A stretch of 64,000 nucleotides of DNA from Lichenibacterium ramalinae (GTDB taxonomy: Bacteria > Pseudomonadota > Alphaproteobacteria > Rhizobiales > Beijerinckiaceae). Shown here piece after piece: positions 28,613 through 56,930 of this stretch. Position numbers and translations under genes: made by a program. The notes beneath the pieces were generated by a model that worked only from the letters and a program-made list of their open reading frames with translations, was not told the DNA's origin and did no database searches. Each line of letters opens with the position of its first letter. The stretch's first letter is position 1. The stretch lies in contig NZ_QYBC01000001.1 in the NCBI RefSeq assembly GCF_004137085.1, positions 248,001-312,000 on the forward strand, given 5' to 3'.

Positions 28613-29072
28613 GGAAACCTCCGGCCCGGTGATCGACCCGCCCGACCGGCGATGTGCCGAGGTCGACGGGCCCTGTTGAAAAGCCAAAGCAGAGCGCGCC
28701 CGAGGGCGCTGAAGCGCTGTCGGACGTTCGCCTCCGCGCTCGGGGCACGGTCGGCGTTGGCGGGCCTCGAAAAGCCGTGAGGGCGCTTTAGGCGATCGGC
28801 GGGCGGGCTGTCAATGCCCAAGCGAACGGACCGGCTGAACGAGCGGTTGCAAGTCACGCCGGGCTCTGCTAGGCGTCATGGTGTATCCACGTGAACCGGG
28901 GGAGAGCTTCATGGCCAAGCACATCGTGTCTCCCCGGTCCTTCGGCGCCATGCGCCCGGGTTTCGCCGCGTCGTAAGGCGCCGCGACCCTTCGATACACC
29001 TCCTTCTTTCCGCCTGACGATCCACGTTCGCGCCGCGTCCGCCGTGGCACCGCGGGCGTGCCCGGAATTCCC
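28613..29072. other. Divergent intergenic region between ffh and the ABC exporter
   Basis: 460 nt with no large gene. It must contain the ffh promoter on the minus strand and the exporter promoter on the plus strand. A short plus-strand frame with a strong ribosome site lies at 28911-28976 (listed separately). Nothing else is recognisable. Confidence 0.5.
28911..28976 (+). CDS. Possible 21-aa leader peptide
   Basis: MAKHIVSPRSFGAMRPGFAA followed by S and TAA. A strong ribosome site (GGGGGAG) sits 6-12 nt before the ATG, which is unusual for a random frame. It ends 96 nt before the ABC exporter start. An in-frame ATG further up (28878) would add 11 residues. It may be a leader peptide or chance. 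Confidence 0.28.
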   Translation: MAKHIVSPRSFGAMRPGFAAS

Positions 29073-50749: not shown

Positions 50750-51787
50750 ATGCTGCAAATGCCCGCCTCAGGCTTCGCCGCCGCCGAAGCCGCGCCGCTC
50801 ATCGATCCGTTCGGGCGCGCCATCACCTACCTGCGCGTTTCGGTGACGGACCGCTGCGACTTCCGCTGCGTCTACTGCATGTCGGAGCAGATGCAGTTCC
50901 TGCCGAAGCGCGACCTCCTCACCCTGGAGGAGCTCGACCGGCTCTGCACGGCCTTCGTCGAGCGCGGCACCCGCAAGCTGCGCATCACCGGCGGCGAGCC
51001 CCTGGTGCGGCGCGACATCATGCAGCTCTTCGGCAAGCTGTCGCGCCATCTCGGCTCCGGGGCGCTCGACGAGCTGACGCTGACCACCAACGGTTCGCAG
51101 CTGGCGCGCTTCGCCGAGGAACTCGCGGGGTGCGGCGTCAGGCGGGTCAACGTGTCGCTCGACACGCTCGACCCCGCGAAGTTCGGCGTCATCACGCGCT
51201 GGGGCGATTTCGACCGCGTGGTCGACGGCATGGCGGCGGCGCAGCGGGCCGGGCTGAAGGTGAAGCTCAACGCCGTGGCGCTGAAGGGCGTCAACGAGGA
51301 CGAACTCGCCGACATGGTGGCCTGGTCGCACGACCGCGGCATGGAGATCACCTTCATCGAGGTGATGCCGCTCGGCGAGGAGGGCGGGGACCGGTCCGAC
51401 CAGTTCCTGTCGCTGGAAGAGGTGCGGTCGCGGCTGGGCGAACGCTTTTCGCTGTCGCCCCTCGCGGTGTCGACGGGCGGGCCGGCGCGCTACTGGCGCG
51501 TCGGCGAGACGGGGGGCCGCGTCGGCTTCATCACGCCGCTCACCCACAATTTCTGCGAAAGCTGCAACCGGGTGCGCGTCACCTGCACGGGCACGCTCTA
51601 CATGTGCCTCGGCCAGAACGACGCCGCGGACCTGCGAGCCGCCCTGCGCTCGCCAGACCCAGACGCGGCGCTCGAGGCCGCCATCGCCGAGGCCATCTCG
51701 CGCAAGCCCAAGGGCCACGACTTCGTCGCCGACCGCCTCGCCGCCAAGCCCCGTGTCGCCCGCATGATGAGCACCACGGGCGGCTGA
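50750..51787 (+). CDS. moaA: GTP 3',8-cyclase (molybdopterin biosynthesis)
   Basis: 345 aa radical SAM enzyme that turns GTP into the first pterin intermediate of the molybdenum cofactor. N-terminal cluster CDFRCVYC (C36, C40, C43); C-terminal cluster C269, C272 and C286 in the CX2CX13C arrangement; the C-terminal GG tail needed for activity is present. Molybdenum cofactor is required by nitrate reductase, and nitrate genes follow within 2 kb, but no other moa gene is nearby. Confidence 0.97.
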
Positions 51788-51864: not shown

Positions 51865-53124
51865 TCACGCCATCAGGGTCTGGATGCCCTGCTCGTAGAG
51901 CGCCGTGAGTTCGCCGAACCGCGCCAGCAGGGTTTCGCTGAGGACGGCGACATCGCGGCGGGCCGCGACGGGGTCGGCGAGGGCGTGGCGGAAGCCCGCC
52001 CAGGCCTGCAGGGCGTCCCCCATCACGGCTTGGATCTCGCCTGTGCTGAGCGGTGCCGCCGCCAGGAAGGCCAGGCCCTGCTCGAAATCCGCCTCCGCCC
52101 GGCGCATGGCATCGCCGTCGCCGGGGCGGTCGATCAGCGTCGACAGGATGGCGCCCTTGGCGATCCGCTGCGACAGCATGCGCTGGCGCCCCGACACGTT
52201 GATGATGCGCAACGCCGCCGCGAAGCCGGCCGTCTCGAGGTTGCGGGTCAGCGCTTCGGCCTGGCCGAGCAGCCGTTCCGCGAGGGCATCGACGGCGGCG
52301 AGCCGCGCCGTGGTCGGGCGGTCCCGCACCGCAGCCTTGAGCTCCGACCAGGGGCCGAGCACGCCGTCGAGCAGGTCCCCGAAGGTCGCCCGCGACAGGC
52401 TGCGGCCCAGCACGGCGAGGTTGGCGTCGGCCTGGGCGACGGAATCGTCGCAGAGCCGGCGCGCGGCCTCGGGCTCGATCCCGGCGCAGCCCAGGCCGTT
52501 CAGCTTGACGATGCGCTGCGACAGCATGCGGAGCTGCCCGGCGCGGTTGATGGCATCGGCGTAGCGGGTCGCGTCGATCACCTGCTGGGCCACCTGCCCG
52601 ATGCGCTGCTTCGACTGCATGGCGGCCGAGCGCAGCACCTTGAAGGCCTCCTCCTCGGGCACGTTGCGGACCCGCATGAGGATGCCCTTGGCCCGGTCGA
52701 CCAGCTTGCGTTCGCTGAAGCGGTCGCGGACGTCGGAGAGTTCGGCCCGCAGCGCCTGGTCGCGCCGGAACCGGGCCTGGGCCACGTGGATGACCGAGCG
52801 CAGGCGCCGCGGCGCGTAGCCGTCCACCACATAGGCATGCACGCCCGCACCCGCCGCGCGCTCGATCTTCTCGGCATCCGGGTCGGCCGTGAAGAGCACG
52901 AAGGGGCGGGGCGCCGTGTCCTGCAGCGTCGCCGTGATGGCGAACAGGGCATCGCCCGGGTGATTTTCATAGCAGACGACCACGTCCGGGGCAGAGCGGA
53001 TCACGTCCTGCACCATGGTGCGCAGGTCGAGCGCCGCCCCCACCGTGAGCCCCACGCTTTCGAGGTCGCGCGCGAGCCCTGGCGCGCCGGGGCCGCCGGA
53101 GGAGAAGAACGAGACCGTCGTCAT
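51865..53124 (-). CDS. ANTAR antiterminator with two nitrate-sensor-like P-box (PilJ/NarX-type) domains
   Basis: 419 aa. Residues 1-115 form a receiver-like domain without a clear phosphoacceptor (VVVCYENHP where VVVLD is usual). The ANTAR RNA-binding domain follows (about 134-183: RFSERKLVDRAKGILMRVRN, then EEAFKVLRSAAMQSKQRIGQ). Two helical domains each carry a P-box motif: AINRAGQLRMLSQRIVKL (191-208) and IINVSGRQRMLSQRIAKG (308-324). In NarX/NarQ the matching box (GSLRMQSYR) holds nitrate through its arginine; both copies here keep G-x-x-R-M-x-S-x-R. ANTAR proteins prevent termination by binding leader hairpins; NasT and NasR do so for nitrate assimilation. It is divergent from a nitrate transporter gene. 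No transmembrane segment is seen, so it should be a soluble cytoplasmic sensor. Start ATG 53124. Confidence 0.88.
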   Translation of the reverse strand: MTTVSFFSSGGPGAPGLARDLESVGLTVGAALDLRTMVQDVIRSAPDVVVCYENHPGDALFAITATLQDTAPRPFVLFTADPDAEKIERAAGAGVHAYVVDGYAPRRLRSVIHVAQARFRRDQALRAELSDVRDRFSERKLVDRAKGILMRVRNVPEEEAFKVLRSAAMQSKQRIGQVAQQVIDATRYADAINRAGQLRMLSQRIVKLNGLGCAGIEPEAARRLCDDSVAQADANLAVLGRSLSRATFGDLLDGVLGPWSELKAAVRDRPTTARLAAVDALAERLLGQAEALTRNLETAGFAAALRIINVSGRQRMLSQRIAKGAILSTLIDRPGDGDAMRRAEADFEQGLAFLAAAPLSTGEIQAVMGDALQAWAGFRHALADPVAARRDVAVLSETLLARFGELTALYEQGIQTLMA

Positions 53125-53204
53125 GGAGCAACCGCCAACCGGACCCACCGCCGCATGGGAGCCCGGGGGGCGGTGCAAGCCCCGCGCCGCCCGGCCCAAA
53201 CGGG

Positions 53205-53220
53205 TGGCACGCATCGTGCA
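53205..53220 (+). promoter_or_regulatory. Sigma-54 promoter of narK
   Basis: TGGCACG-CATC-GTGCA matches the consensus TGGCACG-N4-TTGCA at 11 of 12 fixed positions, with GG and GC exactly 10 nt apart. Transcription would start near 53231, giving a leader of about 118 nt. It predicts nitrogen control through NtrC-type activators. Clear paired NtrC sites upstream are not evident; one GGTGCA half-site lies at 53172-53177. Confidence 0.78.
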
Positions 53221-53274
53221 AATCCCGGCTCGGCTGCACCGACGCGGCCGACTTTCGCCTCGCACGCCGAGTCG

Positions 53275-53294
53275 TGCCCACAGAGCCGTGGGCA
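53275..53294 (+). promoter_or_regulatory. ANTAR-type RNA hairpin in narK leader
   Basis: A perfect 7-bp stem TGCCCAC / GTGGGCA closes the six-base loop AGAGCC. ANTAR target hairpins have six-base loops with A at position 1 and G at position 4, exactly as here. It sits about 45 nt into the predicted transcript and 55 nt before the ATG. A second weaker structure (CTCC-TCGC-GTCA-GCGA...GGAG, 53304-53327) follows it. I do not find a second loop of the same type nor a clear U-tract terminator. Confidence 0.65.
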
Positions 53295-53348
53295 ATCCGT
53301 GCCTCCTCGCGTCAGCGACCGGGGAGACAACGCCTCTTGGAGCGCATC

Positions 53349-54719
53349 ATGGCAGTTGGAACGCCCACCGGTAAGGCCACCCGCATCGACCTGTTCAGCC
53401 TGAAGACCCCGCAGATGCGGGCCTTCCACCTGACATGGCTCGCCTTCTTCGTCTGCTTCTTCGCCTGGTTCGCGACGGCACCCCTGATGCCGACCATCGC
53501 CAAGGACCTGTCGCTGTCGAAGGACCAGGTCTACAACATCACGATCGCGGGCGTGTTCGCCACCATCCTGGCCCGGGCCGTGATCGGGCCGATGTGCGAC
53601 CGCTACGGGCCCCGCATCACCTACACGCTGCTGCTCGCGCTCGGCGCCATCCCGGTCTTCCTGATCGGATTCGCCCAGGACTACACGTCCTTCATGATCG
53701 GCCGCCTGTTCATCGGCGTGATCGGCGCCTCCTTCGTGGTCACGCAGTACCACACGTCGGTGATGTTCGCCCCGAACGTGGTCGGCACCGCCAACGCCAC
53801 CGTGGGGGGCTGGGGCAATGCCGGCGGCGGCGTCACCCAGACCATCATGCCGATCATCTTCAGCGGCATCGCCGCCTACGGCCTTTCGGCGTCGCTGAGC
53901 TGGCGCGCCGCCATGGTGGTGCCGGGCGTGGCGATGCTGATCGTGGCGGTGCTCTACTGGCGCTTCACCCAGGACACGCCGCTCGGCAACCTGTCCGCCC
54001 TGCGCGCCAAGGGCATCGTGGTCGACACCGGCAAGAAGGGCGGCCTCGGCGTGATGCGGCAGGCGGCCCGGAACTACCGCGTCTGGCTCCTCGCCGCCGG
54101 CTACGGCGCCTCCTTCGGCGTCGAGCTCTTCGTCCATTCCATCGCCGTCACGTATTTCGTCGGCAAGTTCCAGATGACGCAGGGCAATGCCGGCTACGCG
54201 GTCGGCGCCTTCGGCCTGCTCGCCTTGTTCGCCCGGGCGCTCGGCGGCCTCCTGTCGGACCGAGTGGCCTACTCCAAGGGCCTCGGCGGCCGGACCTGGC
54301 TGCTCTTCGCCATGCTGCTGTGCGAGGGCGTGTTCCTCATCGCCTTCTCGCAGTCCGACTCGGTCGCGCTCGCCGTGGTCTTCCTGCTGGTCTTCGGCCT
54401 GTTCACCCACATGGCCTGCGGCTCCCTCTACGCCATCGTGCCCTTCGTCGACCGCAAGGTGCTGGGCGGCGTCACCGGCATCATCGGCGCCGGCGGCAAC
54501 GTCGGCGGCGTGGTGGCGGGCTTCCTGGCCCGCGGCACCGGCAACGTCCAGGTCACCTTCCTGATCCTGGGCATCGTCGCCGTGGTCTGTGCCTGCGGCG
54601 CCGCCGCCATCCGCTTCTCGCTCGCCCACAGGGAAAGCGAGCAGGCGCTCTACGACGAGGCGGTCGCCGAGCGCCGGAGCGCGGCAACCTTGTCGACCGG
54701 GGCCGCCGTCACGGCCTGA
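53349..54719 (+). CDS. narK: Nitrate/nitrite MFS transporter (NarK type)
   Basis: 456 aa, 12 helices. Nitrate signatures are GGWGNAGGG in TM5 and GAGGNVGG in TM11; the substrate arginines are within RAVIGPMCDRYGPR (TM2) and ARALGGLLSDRV (TM8). Start ATG 53349 follows TTGGAG. Assimilatory uptake is the likely role, since no respiratory reductase is nearby; NasA-type reductase genes must lie outside the window. The leader carries the sigma-54 promoter and ANTAR-type hairpin described above. Confidence 0.92.
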   Translation: MAVGTPTGKATRIDLFSLKTPQMRAFHLTWLAFFVCFFAWFATAPLMPTIAKDLSLSKDQVYNITIAGVFATILARAVIGPMCDRYGPRITYTLLLALGAIPVFLIGFAQDYTSFMIGRLFIGVIGASFVVTQYHTSVMFAPNVVGTANATVGGWGNAGGGVTQTIMPIIFSGIAAYGLSASLSWRAAMVVPGVAMLIVAVLYWRFTQDTPLGNLSALRAKGIVVDTGKKGGLGVMRQAARNYRVWLLAAGYGASFGVELFVHSIAVTYFVGKFQMTQGNAGYAVGAFGLLALFARALGGLLSDRVAYSKGLGGRTWLLFAMLLCEGVFLIAFSQSDSVALAVVFLLVFGLFTHMACGSLYAIVPFVDRKVLGGVTGIIGAGGNVGGVVAGFLARGTGNVQVTFLILGIVAVVCACGAAAIRFSLAHRESEQALYDEAVAERRSAATLSTGAAVTA

Positions 54720-56054: not shown

Positions 56055-56930
56055 TCAGCCGCCATTGGCCTTGTCGAGTTCCTCGCGCACGGGGGCGTGG
56101 TTGAGCAGCGCCACCAGCGAGGTGCCGCCCACCACGTTGCCCAGGAAGGTCGGCACGAAGAAGTGGCCGACGTAGTCGCCGATGCCGATCTGGCCGACGA
56201 TCACCAGGTAGGCGATCTCCGACGAGCCCGCGATGAGGTGGGAGGTGTGGGAGATCGCCACCAGGTAGGTGATGATGAGGATCAGCAGCAGCCGCGACTG
56301 GCCGGCGCTGGGCATGAGCCAGACCATGAGGGCGATGAGCCAGCCCGCCAGCATGGACTTCAGCGCCATGTGCCAGAAGGAGTCGCGCAGGGCCTCCTGG
56401 CCGATCTCCGACAGGGCCTGGGTGACGGGCTCCTGGAACAGGCCCGGCACCGCCAGCAGGGCCGCGAACAGCACGGTCCCGACCACGTTGGCGACCAGCA
56501 CCACCGCCCAGAGCCGCAGCATGCCCGACACCGCCGCCCCGGTGGGCTTGGTGAGCACGGGCAGCACCGCCGTGAGGGTGCTCTCGGTGAAGAGCTGCTG
56601 CCGGCCGAGCACGACGATGAGGAAGCCGGTGGTGTAGCCGAAACCCGAGACCAGGATGCGCCAGGGCGCGTCCGGCAGCGCGGCGCGCATCACCGCCATG
56701 ATCAGGAAGGAAAAGCCCATCGACAGGCCGGCGGCGAGGCCCGACCAGGCCAGGGCCGAGATGCTGCGGTCGAGTTCGCGTTCGCCGTCATGGCGGATGA
56801 TGTCGTGGATCTTGACGGGCTCGGGCGCCGACGAGATCGCCGTCTGGAACGTGTCGCTGAGCGTGTCGGCCCCGGTGCCGCTCGACTGCCCCTCCCCCTC
56901 ACCGTCCTCGTCGCCCCTGTTCCGCGTCAT
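56055..56930 (-). CDS. Formate/nitrite transporter family channel (YfdC-like)
   Basis: 291 aa. After a 50-residue acidic, Gly/Ser-rich cytoplasmic tail come six helices with FNT features: LGRQQLFTESTLTAVLPVLT, VLVANVVGTVLFAALLA, and HTSHLIAGSSEIAYL with SxxY. It belongs to the YfdC branch rather than FocA/NirC; transported anions for this branch are not well defined. Its place 1.3 kb from narK invites a role in nitrite traffic, but that is only context. Confidence 0.87.
   Translation of the reverse strand: MTRNRGDEDGEGEGQSSGTGADTLSDTFQTAISSAPEPVKIHDIIRHDGERELDRSISALAWSGLAAGLSMGFSFLIMAVMRAALPDAPWRILVSGFGYTTGFLIVVLGRQQLFTESTLTAVLPVLTKPTGAAVSGMLRLWAVVLVANVVGTVLFAALLAVPGLFQEPVTQALSEIGQEALRDSFWHMALKSMLAGWLIALMVWLMPSAGQSRLLLILIITYLVAISHTSHLIAGSSEIAYLVIVGQIGIGDYVGHFFVPTFLGNVVGGTSLVALLNHAPVREELDKANGG

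Follow-up and report, generated by a model that had tools for sequence, protein, structure and literature searches.

The leader of a narK-like gene in Lichenibacterium ramalinae is very probably an RNA target of an ANTAR protein, and we hold it likely, with somewhat less assurance, that it is targeted by the ANTAR protein encoded next to it, through the mechanism proposed below. A sigma-54-type promoter motif and two hairpins conserved in relatives, here termed P1 and P2, precede the gene in the stretch of DNA under study (64,000 nucleotides of contig NZ_QYBC01000001.1, hereafter the window), and the neighbouring gene encodes a regulator with ANTAR and PilJ domains.

The narK-like gene (53349-54719, plus strand) encodes a nitrate/nitrite MFS transporter, recognised by NCBIfam TIGR00886 at 315.4 bits against a cut-off of 311.7, and judging by sequence its probable ribosome-binding site is GGAG at 53339-53342 (plus strand). 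Read directly from the sequence, the sigma-54-type promoter TGGCACGCATCGTGC occupies 53205-53219 of the plus strand with GG at 53206-53207 and GC at 53218-53219, which is the exact GG-N10-GC arrangement claimed in an earlier note on this DNA; the context of the TGGCAC-N5-TTGC consensus is kept, the first base of the TTGC being G rather than T. From the usual spacing between sigma-54 promoters and their starts, transcription is predicted to begin at 53231 (plus strand), 12 bases past the promoter GC, and P1 of relatives starts within a few bases. The leader thus delimited runs from 53231 to 53348 (plus strand), and its 118 bases, followed by the narK ATG at 53349, agree with the length of about 118 nt estimated previously. 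The regulator gene, with receiver-like, ANTAR and two PilJ stretches (Pfam PF03861, PF13675), lies on the minus strand at 51865-53124, divergent and adjacent as had also been claimed. Convergent with it is a moaA-like gene (molybdenum cofactor synthesis; window 50750-51787), a neighbour that fits a nitrate-reductase context. Elsewhere in the window, a formate/nitrite-family channel protein, below its family cut-off, is encoded at 56055-56930, downstream of narK on the opposite strand, and an ffh sRNA match (Rfam RF01793, 38.2 bits) falls at 28689-28741 on the minus strand.

The suggestion that nitrogen limitation governs initiation stands in part. The sigma-54 promoter is present and is kept in relatives, and it is the promoter that points to this layer; no NtrC-like site stood out in the 130 bases upstream in the window (best score 9 of 12, nothing striking). 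Among the family loci there is a slight excess of good NtrC-type palindrome scores over shuffles, with a score of at least 10 of 12 in the 130 bases upstream at 11 of 73 loci, relative to 46 of 1460 shuffles.

Both leader hairpins have stems of 7 bp and A1/G4 hexaloops. P1 (CGGCUGC-ACCGAC-GCGGCCG; 53231-53250, plus strand, loop 53238-53243) begins on the predicted first transcript base, 53231, and P2 (UGCCCAC-AGAGCC-GUGGGCA; 53275-53294, plus strand, loop 53282-53287) is the perfect stem with an AGAGCC loop to which the earlier note had applied the A1/G4 rule. That note considered a second hairpin not obvious; one does exist, namely P1, upstream of P2 with the loop ACCGAC. Among 20,000 dinucleotide shuffles of the 119-base leader, none contained two A1/G4 hexaloop hairpins, even when stems of at least 6 pairs were accepted, while at least one such hairpin of at least 7 pairs arose in 100 of 20,000, and one of at least 7 pairs starting at +1 to +3 in 3 of 20,000. 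No third A1/G4 hairpin of at least 5 pairs is present in the window leader. The folding energy of the leader is ordinary (z -0.50), and its stability is therefore no evidence for the element. Rfam found no family in the leader at the gathering score, and with E up to 10 returned four leader matches (E 5.3-8.9), none of them related.

Set against the ANTAR-target definition of Ramesh et al. (2012), the window leader has two hairpins each of at least 3 pairs (7 bp and 7 bp), hexaloops with A1 and G4 (ACCGAC and AGAGCC), and an ANTAR gene in the genome, here the adjacent gene with PF03861; the terminator overlapping P2 that this definition treats as non-obligatory, and that is reported alongside about 30% of the hits in ANTAR genomes (PMC3369931), is absent from the window leader. 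The P1-P2 linker of 24 nt in the window is outside the 5-12 nt spacing of Enterococcus faecalis eut. For EutV, inter-loop spacing is described as critical, with E. faecalis linkers of 5-12 nt and loss of antitermination upon a 20-nt extension, and a single hexaloop is given as the minimal binding unit (PMC3369931, PMC8934654). Because the published ANTAR-RNA search definition permits a variable linker (PMC3369931), the 24 nt bear on EutV-like spacing and not on membership among ANTAR targets, and a folded linker would reconcile this length with the published EutV spacing rule.

Comparative evidence for such folding comes from two alignments. A3 comprises 32 leaders, aligned with MAFFT without structure, from 39 distinct leaders (L070, L015, L061, L065, L068, L045 and L088 were left out, and L067 is a duplicate); as its members were picked with purine-1 loops and GUGC partly in view, it leans towards the pseudoknot. 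A4 comprises 44 covariance-model matches from 74 sources, and is wider than A3, but the model was trained on A3. Unprompted, RNAalifold recovered P1 and P2 from the 32 leaders, along with a helix that joins GCAC of the linker to the GUGC downstream of P2; when a linker hairpin around the GCAC loop is added (53251-53254 with 53269-53272, plus strand, its loop holding GCACG), this helix becomes a pseudoknot, in which GCACG at 53262-53266 pairs with CGUGC at 53298-53302 (both plus strand; the four inner pairs are counted below). Over the four helices, 91.4% of cells in A3 (32 leaders) are paired and 15 of 22 pairs show two-sided change, and none of 500 shuffles matched the paired percentage or the covariation score; the corresponding values in A4 (43 distinct of the 44) are 91.1%, 16 of 22 and, again, 0 of 500 shuffles. 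The conservation in relatives that the earlier note had looked to covariance to reveal is thus borne out for P1, P2 and their loops, with covariation above shuffles. The weakest helix is the linker hairpin, with 75.8% of cells paired in A3 and 79.7% in A4. In A3 the pseudoknot alone has 96.1% of cells paired, a percentage, like its covariation score, that none of 500 shuffles attained; its counts of pairs and of types, two of the five covariation measures, were reached by 116 and 383 of 500 shuffles, respectively. On this comparative footing the linker hairpin and pseudoknot are fairly supported, and we judge the pseudoknot itself to be a probable structure.

Within the 44 model-matched leaders, loop position 4 is G alongside a purine at position 1 in all 44 for P1 and in 43 for P2, a tally to be read with the caveat that a purine at position 1 had been a selection criterion for P1 candidates. 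Both loops are strictly A1/G4 in 19 of the 44, and the P1 loop opens with G rather than A in 22. Where both hairpins were reported (25 of the A3 leaders), the loop starts lie 43-47 bases apart; in the remaining 7 the P2 stem is interrupted or was missed by the hairpin script.

In the regulator, Pfam identifies ANTAR (PF03861, 1.9e-17) and two stretches of PilJ (PF13675, 1.1e-19), and the order is a receiver-like domain first, then ANTAR, then the PilJ pair. In the predicted structure (mean pLDDT 72.9, three sequences used, low in the ANTAR part) the N-terminal third is receiver-like, and the best solved matches of the model by Foldseek are EutV with RNA (6ww6, E 1.3e-5) and without RNA (E 1.5e-5). 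Alignments to 1s8n and 6wsh show the phospho-acceptor Asp replaced by Tyr, and this Tyr (Y52) is kept in all four aligned proteins, making phosphorylation unlikely and the PilJ pair the probable input. By a simple pattern, the window protein contains two RMLSQR motifs, and the family proteins at least one in 71 of 73 cases and two in 30 of 73; the two PilJ stretches with these motifs render a nitrate layer plausible, and nitrate sensing by the PilJ pair is likewise plausible from sequence. No NIT domain of the NasR type was found, Pfam at E 0.001 giving only PilJ and ANTAR, and the PDB match to the nitrate regulatory protein 4akk spans residues 101-183 only. There is also a weak sequence match (E 0.0037) to PDB 6gcv, which we take to be the PilJ domain of McpN. 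In relation to NasT, which acts together with NasS and is not known to carry a PilJ sensor, the receiver-like part is present but fused to PilJ.

The full-length regulator is encoded by three of six genomes of the genus and, at E 1e-40, by one of 385 sampled genomes of the class, which is the window's own. Among 399 genomes from the family to which G418 belongs, 70 encode relatives at E 1e-50, and 60 of these align from query position 25 or earlier; the hits that carry a name come from Lichenibacterium minor (80%) and Rhizobacter sp. Root404 (52%). This family appears to be of Burkholderiales type, as the narK and ANTAR matches of the Rhizobacter locus in G953 are identical in score. Regions from the 70 family genomes together with three congeners provided a set of 73 loci, tallied without L013 (which repeats L044) and L073 (a plasmid). 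A sigma-54-like site with a purine-1/G4 hexaloop P1 at +1 to +7 occurs at 66 of these (loop A1 in 41, G1 in 25), is absent at the thresholds used from seven, and arose in none of 730 shuffled upstream regions. The genes recognised behind the leader are narK of two distantly related types, or nirB. It is this conservation that argues for sigma-54 initiation and for an ANTAR target beside its probable cognate regulator. In a tree of 66 of the 73 proteins (those of at least 380 residues), the three Lichenibacterium rows nest within 27 rows otherwise of G418's family (95/95), which suggests, tentatively in view of the midpoint root, that the regulator may have been transferred into Lichenibacterium. 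A separate protein clade of 18 tree rows (100/100; L016, L087, L089-L091, L093-L096, L098, L100-L102, L104, L106, L107, L110 and L112) includes many leaders that keep the sigma-54 site and P1, and the covariance model R1 at E 0.001 matches only L094 among them. By eye, T-runs come after GC hairpins in L102, L107 and L110, as well as in L109 and L111 outside the tree, the arrangement of true terminators.

Searching with the covariance model gave one strong site in the window's own genome, the window leader at E 1.7e-11, the next match being at 0.13; of 20 chosen genomes, 16 had a match at E 1e-9 or better. The window leader is a training row and 15 of those 16 strong matches are training leaders, such that these are matches by construction. 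The one new strong instance outside the training set (72.4 bits) precedes nirB in genome G815, on the contig that also bears the regulator gene but about 2.3 Mb away from it, and forms 3 of the 4 pseudoknot pairs; in that genome (L085, L130) the leader beside the regulator is degenerate, the full element standing before nirB elsewhere. Weak matches were obtained in G1089 and G805 (E 0.011, beside its regulator gene, and 0.032, elsewhere, respectively), and none in G003 and G005, which are without the full-length protein. Relatives without the full-length protein also lack the RNA: among 21 relatives, the model matches only the three that have the protein, all three being training rows.

In Rhizobacter (L013, 9552-9526, minus strand), a sigma-54-like site with an 8-bp AACGGC hairpin at +2 precedes an NMT1_2 (NrtA-like) transporter gene or operon, and the sequence makes this a possible second target of the same regulator; the 170-base leader contains no second hairpin of the P1 kind with at least 5 pairs. 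The nas operon of the window's own genome (L159; NasC-like and NirB-like genes, both under curated cut-offs) was rejected as a second target, as a scan for A1/G4 loops within 130 bases of its sigma-54-like site revealed no such hairpin of at least 5 pairs. Sigma-54-like sites were seen at the nitrate reductase operon in three genomes of the genus (L159, 13607, minus; L160, 19063, minus; L161, 1966, plus), with no A1/G4 hairpin of at least 5 pairs found nearby. The next own-genome model match (E 0.13, L162) was likewise set aside, the scan giving no plus-strand sigma-54-like site. A kinase/phosphatase-like gene lies between narK and nirB in Rhizobacter (L013, 1547-3448, by eye) and on a Comamonadaceae plasmid (L073, 1045-2763, as annotated).

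Downstream of P2, the conserved GUGCCUCC element (53299-53306, plus strand) is complementary to GGAG(C)GCAU at 53339-53347, the narK ribosome site. When the post-P2 region is folded, the GUGCCUCC strand and the ribosome-site region form at least 6 pairs in 23 of 23 leaders and the start codon is touched in 18, counts that carry no control. The controlled comparisons are less favourable. When arms were exchanged among 17 leaders, 918 of 2000 permutations bound at least as well as the matched arrangement. The mean strength of matched arms was attained by 16% of shuffled arms, and in 3 of 17 leaders the arm ranked first among the 11-mers of that leader (in the window, 5 of 91 were better). Mean predicted pairing of the Shine-Dalgarno (SD) sequence over 22 leaders was 0.80, compared with 0.72 in shuffles, and in the window 0.62, compared with 0.82; in the window and in L012, CUCC prefers a GGAG upstream of the SD. 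A ribosome-site stem was therefore rejected as a general feature, the permutation and shuffle controls lending it no general support, and least in the window. In light of these controls, we regard it as evenly balanced whether output is mainly translational rather than through terminator readthrough.

The scheme we propose, in which we infer binding, nitrate sensing, direction and the output step, would proceed as follows. Sigma-54 RNA polymerase, presumably under nitrogen limitation, would start at 53231, so that the first RNA made is P1, followed by the folded linker hairpin and then P2. The PilJ pair of the one-component regulator would probably bind nitrate, and the regulator would bind the hexaloops of P1 and P2, whose distance apart may be set by the linker hairpin and pseudoknot, which would also tie P2 to the strand just after it. 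Because the narK ribosome site is a second possible partner of GUGCCUCC, binding would probably shift GUGC between the pseudoknot and the ribosome site, and so probably turn narK translation on when nitrate is present. Whether this leader belongs to a class of its own among ANTAR leaders, as a pseudoknot switch gated by the protein, with P1 at the 5' end, in which the linker GCAC and the ribosome site compete for GUGC and the nitrate-bound regulator opens translation of narK (elsewhere nirB) without a terminator, is doubtful enough that we offer it only tentatively.

Classical antitermination, in which ANTAR binding to P1 and P2 would prevent termination in the leader, either at a hairpin lacking a U-tract (CUCCUCG/CGGGGAG) or by Rho, is a possibility of some weight, albeit one we do not favour. 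ANTAR systems characterised before 2012 all attenuate transcription (PMC3369931); the alternative stem in question (CUCCUCG 53303-53309 with CGGGGAG 53320-53326, plus strand) is stable and follows P2 in the window, and some relatives with P1 only (L102, L107, L109, L110 and L111) are those with the hairpins and T-runs seen by eye. Against this, no U-tract follows the window stem, and a scan of 53100-53420 for intrinsic terminators found none (shuffles mean 0.3), so the earlier note was right that a terminator is not obvious, and the antitermination it proposed is not supported by the anatomy. Furthermore, no run of at least four T occurs between +75 and the start used in any of the 24 leaders reported, out of 27 (L046, L047 and L053 had no SD by the rule used), the start in several being the first ATG with a ribosome site and not that of narK. 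The first ATG with a good ribosome site differs from the narK start suggested by homology in L050, L064, L067, L078, L080, L082 and L084, and a short upstream reading frame may lie between leader and narK in these.

The pseudoknot invites a separate doubt, in that the GUGC strand might be kept for another reason, such as a ribosome-site stem, and its pairing with GCAC be a by-product of GC-rich sequence. We think this rather unlikely. A shifted register already gives four-pair matches in 18 of 32 leaders, but the true register gives 30 of 32, among leaders picked with GUGC in view. Covariation of the pseudoknot is mainly one event: two-sided changes amount to 7 cells in four sequences (L074, L076, L079 and L059), of which the first three form one clade (support 100/99, protein tree). 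Yet in those three, two adjacent pairs change together (G-C to A-U and C-G to U-A), and the shuffles fell short in paired percentage and covariation score. The full four-pair helix is present in 31 of the 44 model matches and missing in 13, with 90.7% of pseudoknot cells paired there. It is very improbable that the hairpins have no relation to ANTAR and merely stabilise the transcript of a sigma-54 gene, as P1 could do by protecting the RNA at its extreme 5' end; against this, both hairpins carry purine-1/G4 hexaloops, the element lies next to an ANTAR gene and co-occurs with it, it recurs ahead of nirB and of narK genes of two distantly related types, and the own nas operon has a sigma-54-like site without A1/G4 hairpins.

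If the proposed scheme is true, lichen-associated and Burkholderiales-type bacteria would have a compact RNA switch through which nitrate controls its own import and the reduction of nitrite, and the folded linker would point to a way for an ANTAR protein to serve loops that lie far apart. Simple compensatory changes could, moreover, separate the effects of binding, pseudoknot and ribosome access in such a system.

Nitrogen control above nitrate-sensing ANTAR control is the scheme described for Klebsiella nas/NasR (PMC5424462). Among the closest known systems is Klebsiella oxytoca nasF/NasR, which is nitrogen-regulated and in which a nitrate-responsive, one-component sensor-ANTAR fusion acts on an A1/G4 leader hairpin (PMC5424462, PMC7496416, PMC3369931). 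The earlier suggestion that the mechanism may differ from nasF holds for the sensor architecture and the RNA layout: NasR has a NIT domain, whereas the window sensor is a PilJ pair after ANTAR with a receiver-like domain in front, and the window leader, unlike nasF, has no visible terminator, a probably folded 24-nt linker and a probable pseudoknot. The overall design is that of a NasR/nasF-like nitrate leader. With E. faecalis eut/EutV, the system shares a receiver-ANTAR core, tandem P1/P2 hexaloops and the model's best fold match (6ww6), but the window receiver is without the phospho-Asp (aligned to Tyr), its linker is 24 nt as opposed to 5-12, and no terminator overlaps P2. As in Paracoccus denitrificans nasA/NasT-NasS, two leader hairpins precede nitrate-assimilation genes under superordinate nitrogen control (PMC5424462), although termination is proposed there. 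Translational control near the ribosome site has been proposed or shown for actinobacterial and mycobacterial ANTAR RNAs, in which, unlike in the window with its upstream hairpins, the dual hairpin covers the ribosome site and binding represses (PMC8164766). The PilJ domain is shared with McpN, for which nitrate binding is reported (PMC6381276, PMC7247690); McpN is a chemoreceptor with a periplasmic sensor, whereas the window protein fuses two PilJ stretches to an RNA-binding domain. Terminator-less ANTAR RNAs, including some close to ribosome sites, have been described before (PMC3369931). In the open-access literature searched, to the extent that its text was available, we found no description of an ANTAR-PilJ fusion, which adds a sensor architecture, or of a pseudoknot in an ANTAR RNA, the accessible text of PMC8164766 and PMC11162775 giving none. 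What appears to be new here is thus the sensor architecture, the position of P1 at the sigma-54 transcript start, and the linker hairpin with its pseudoknot.
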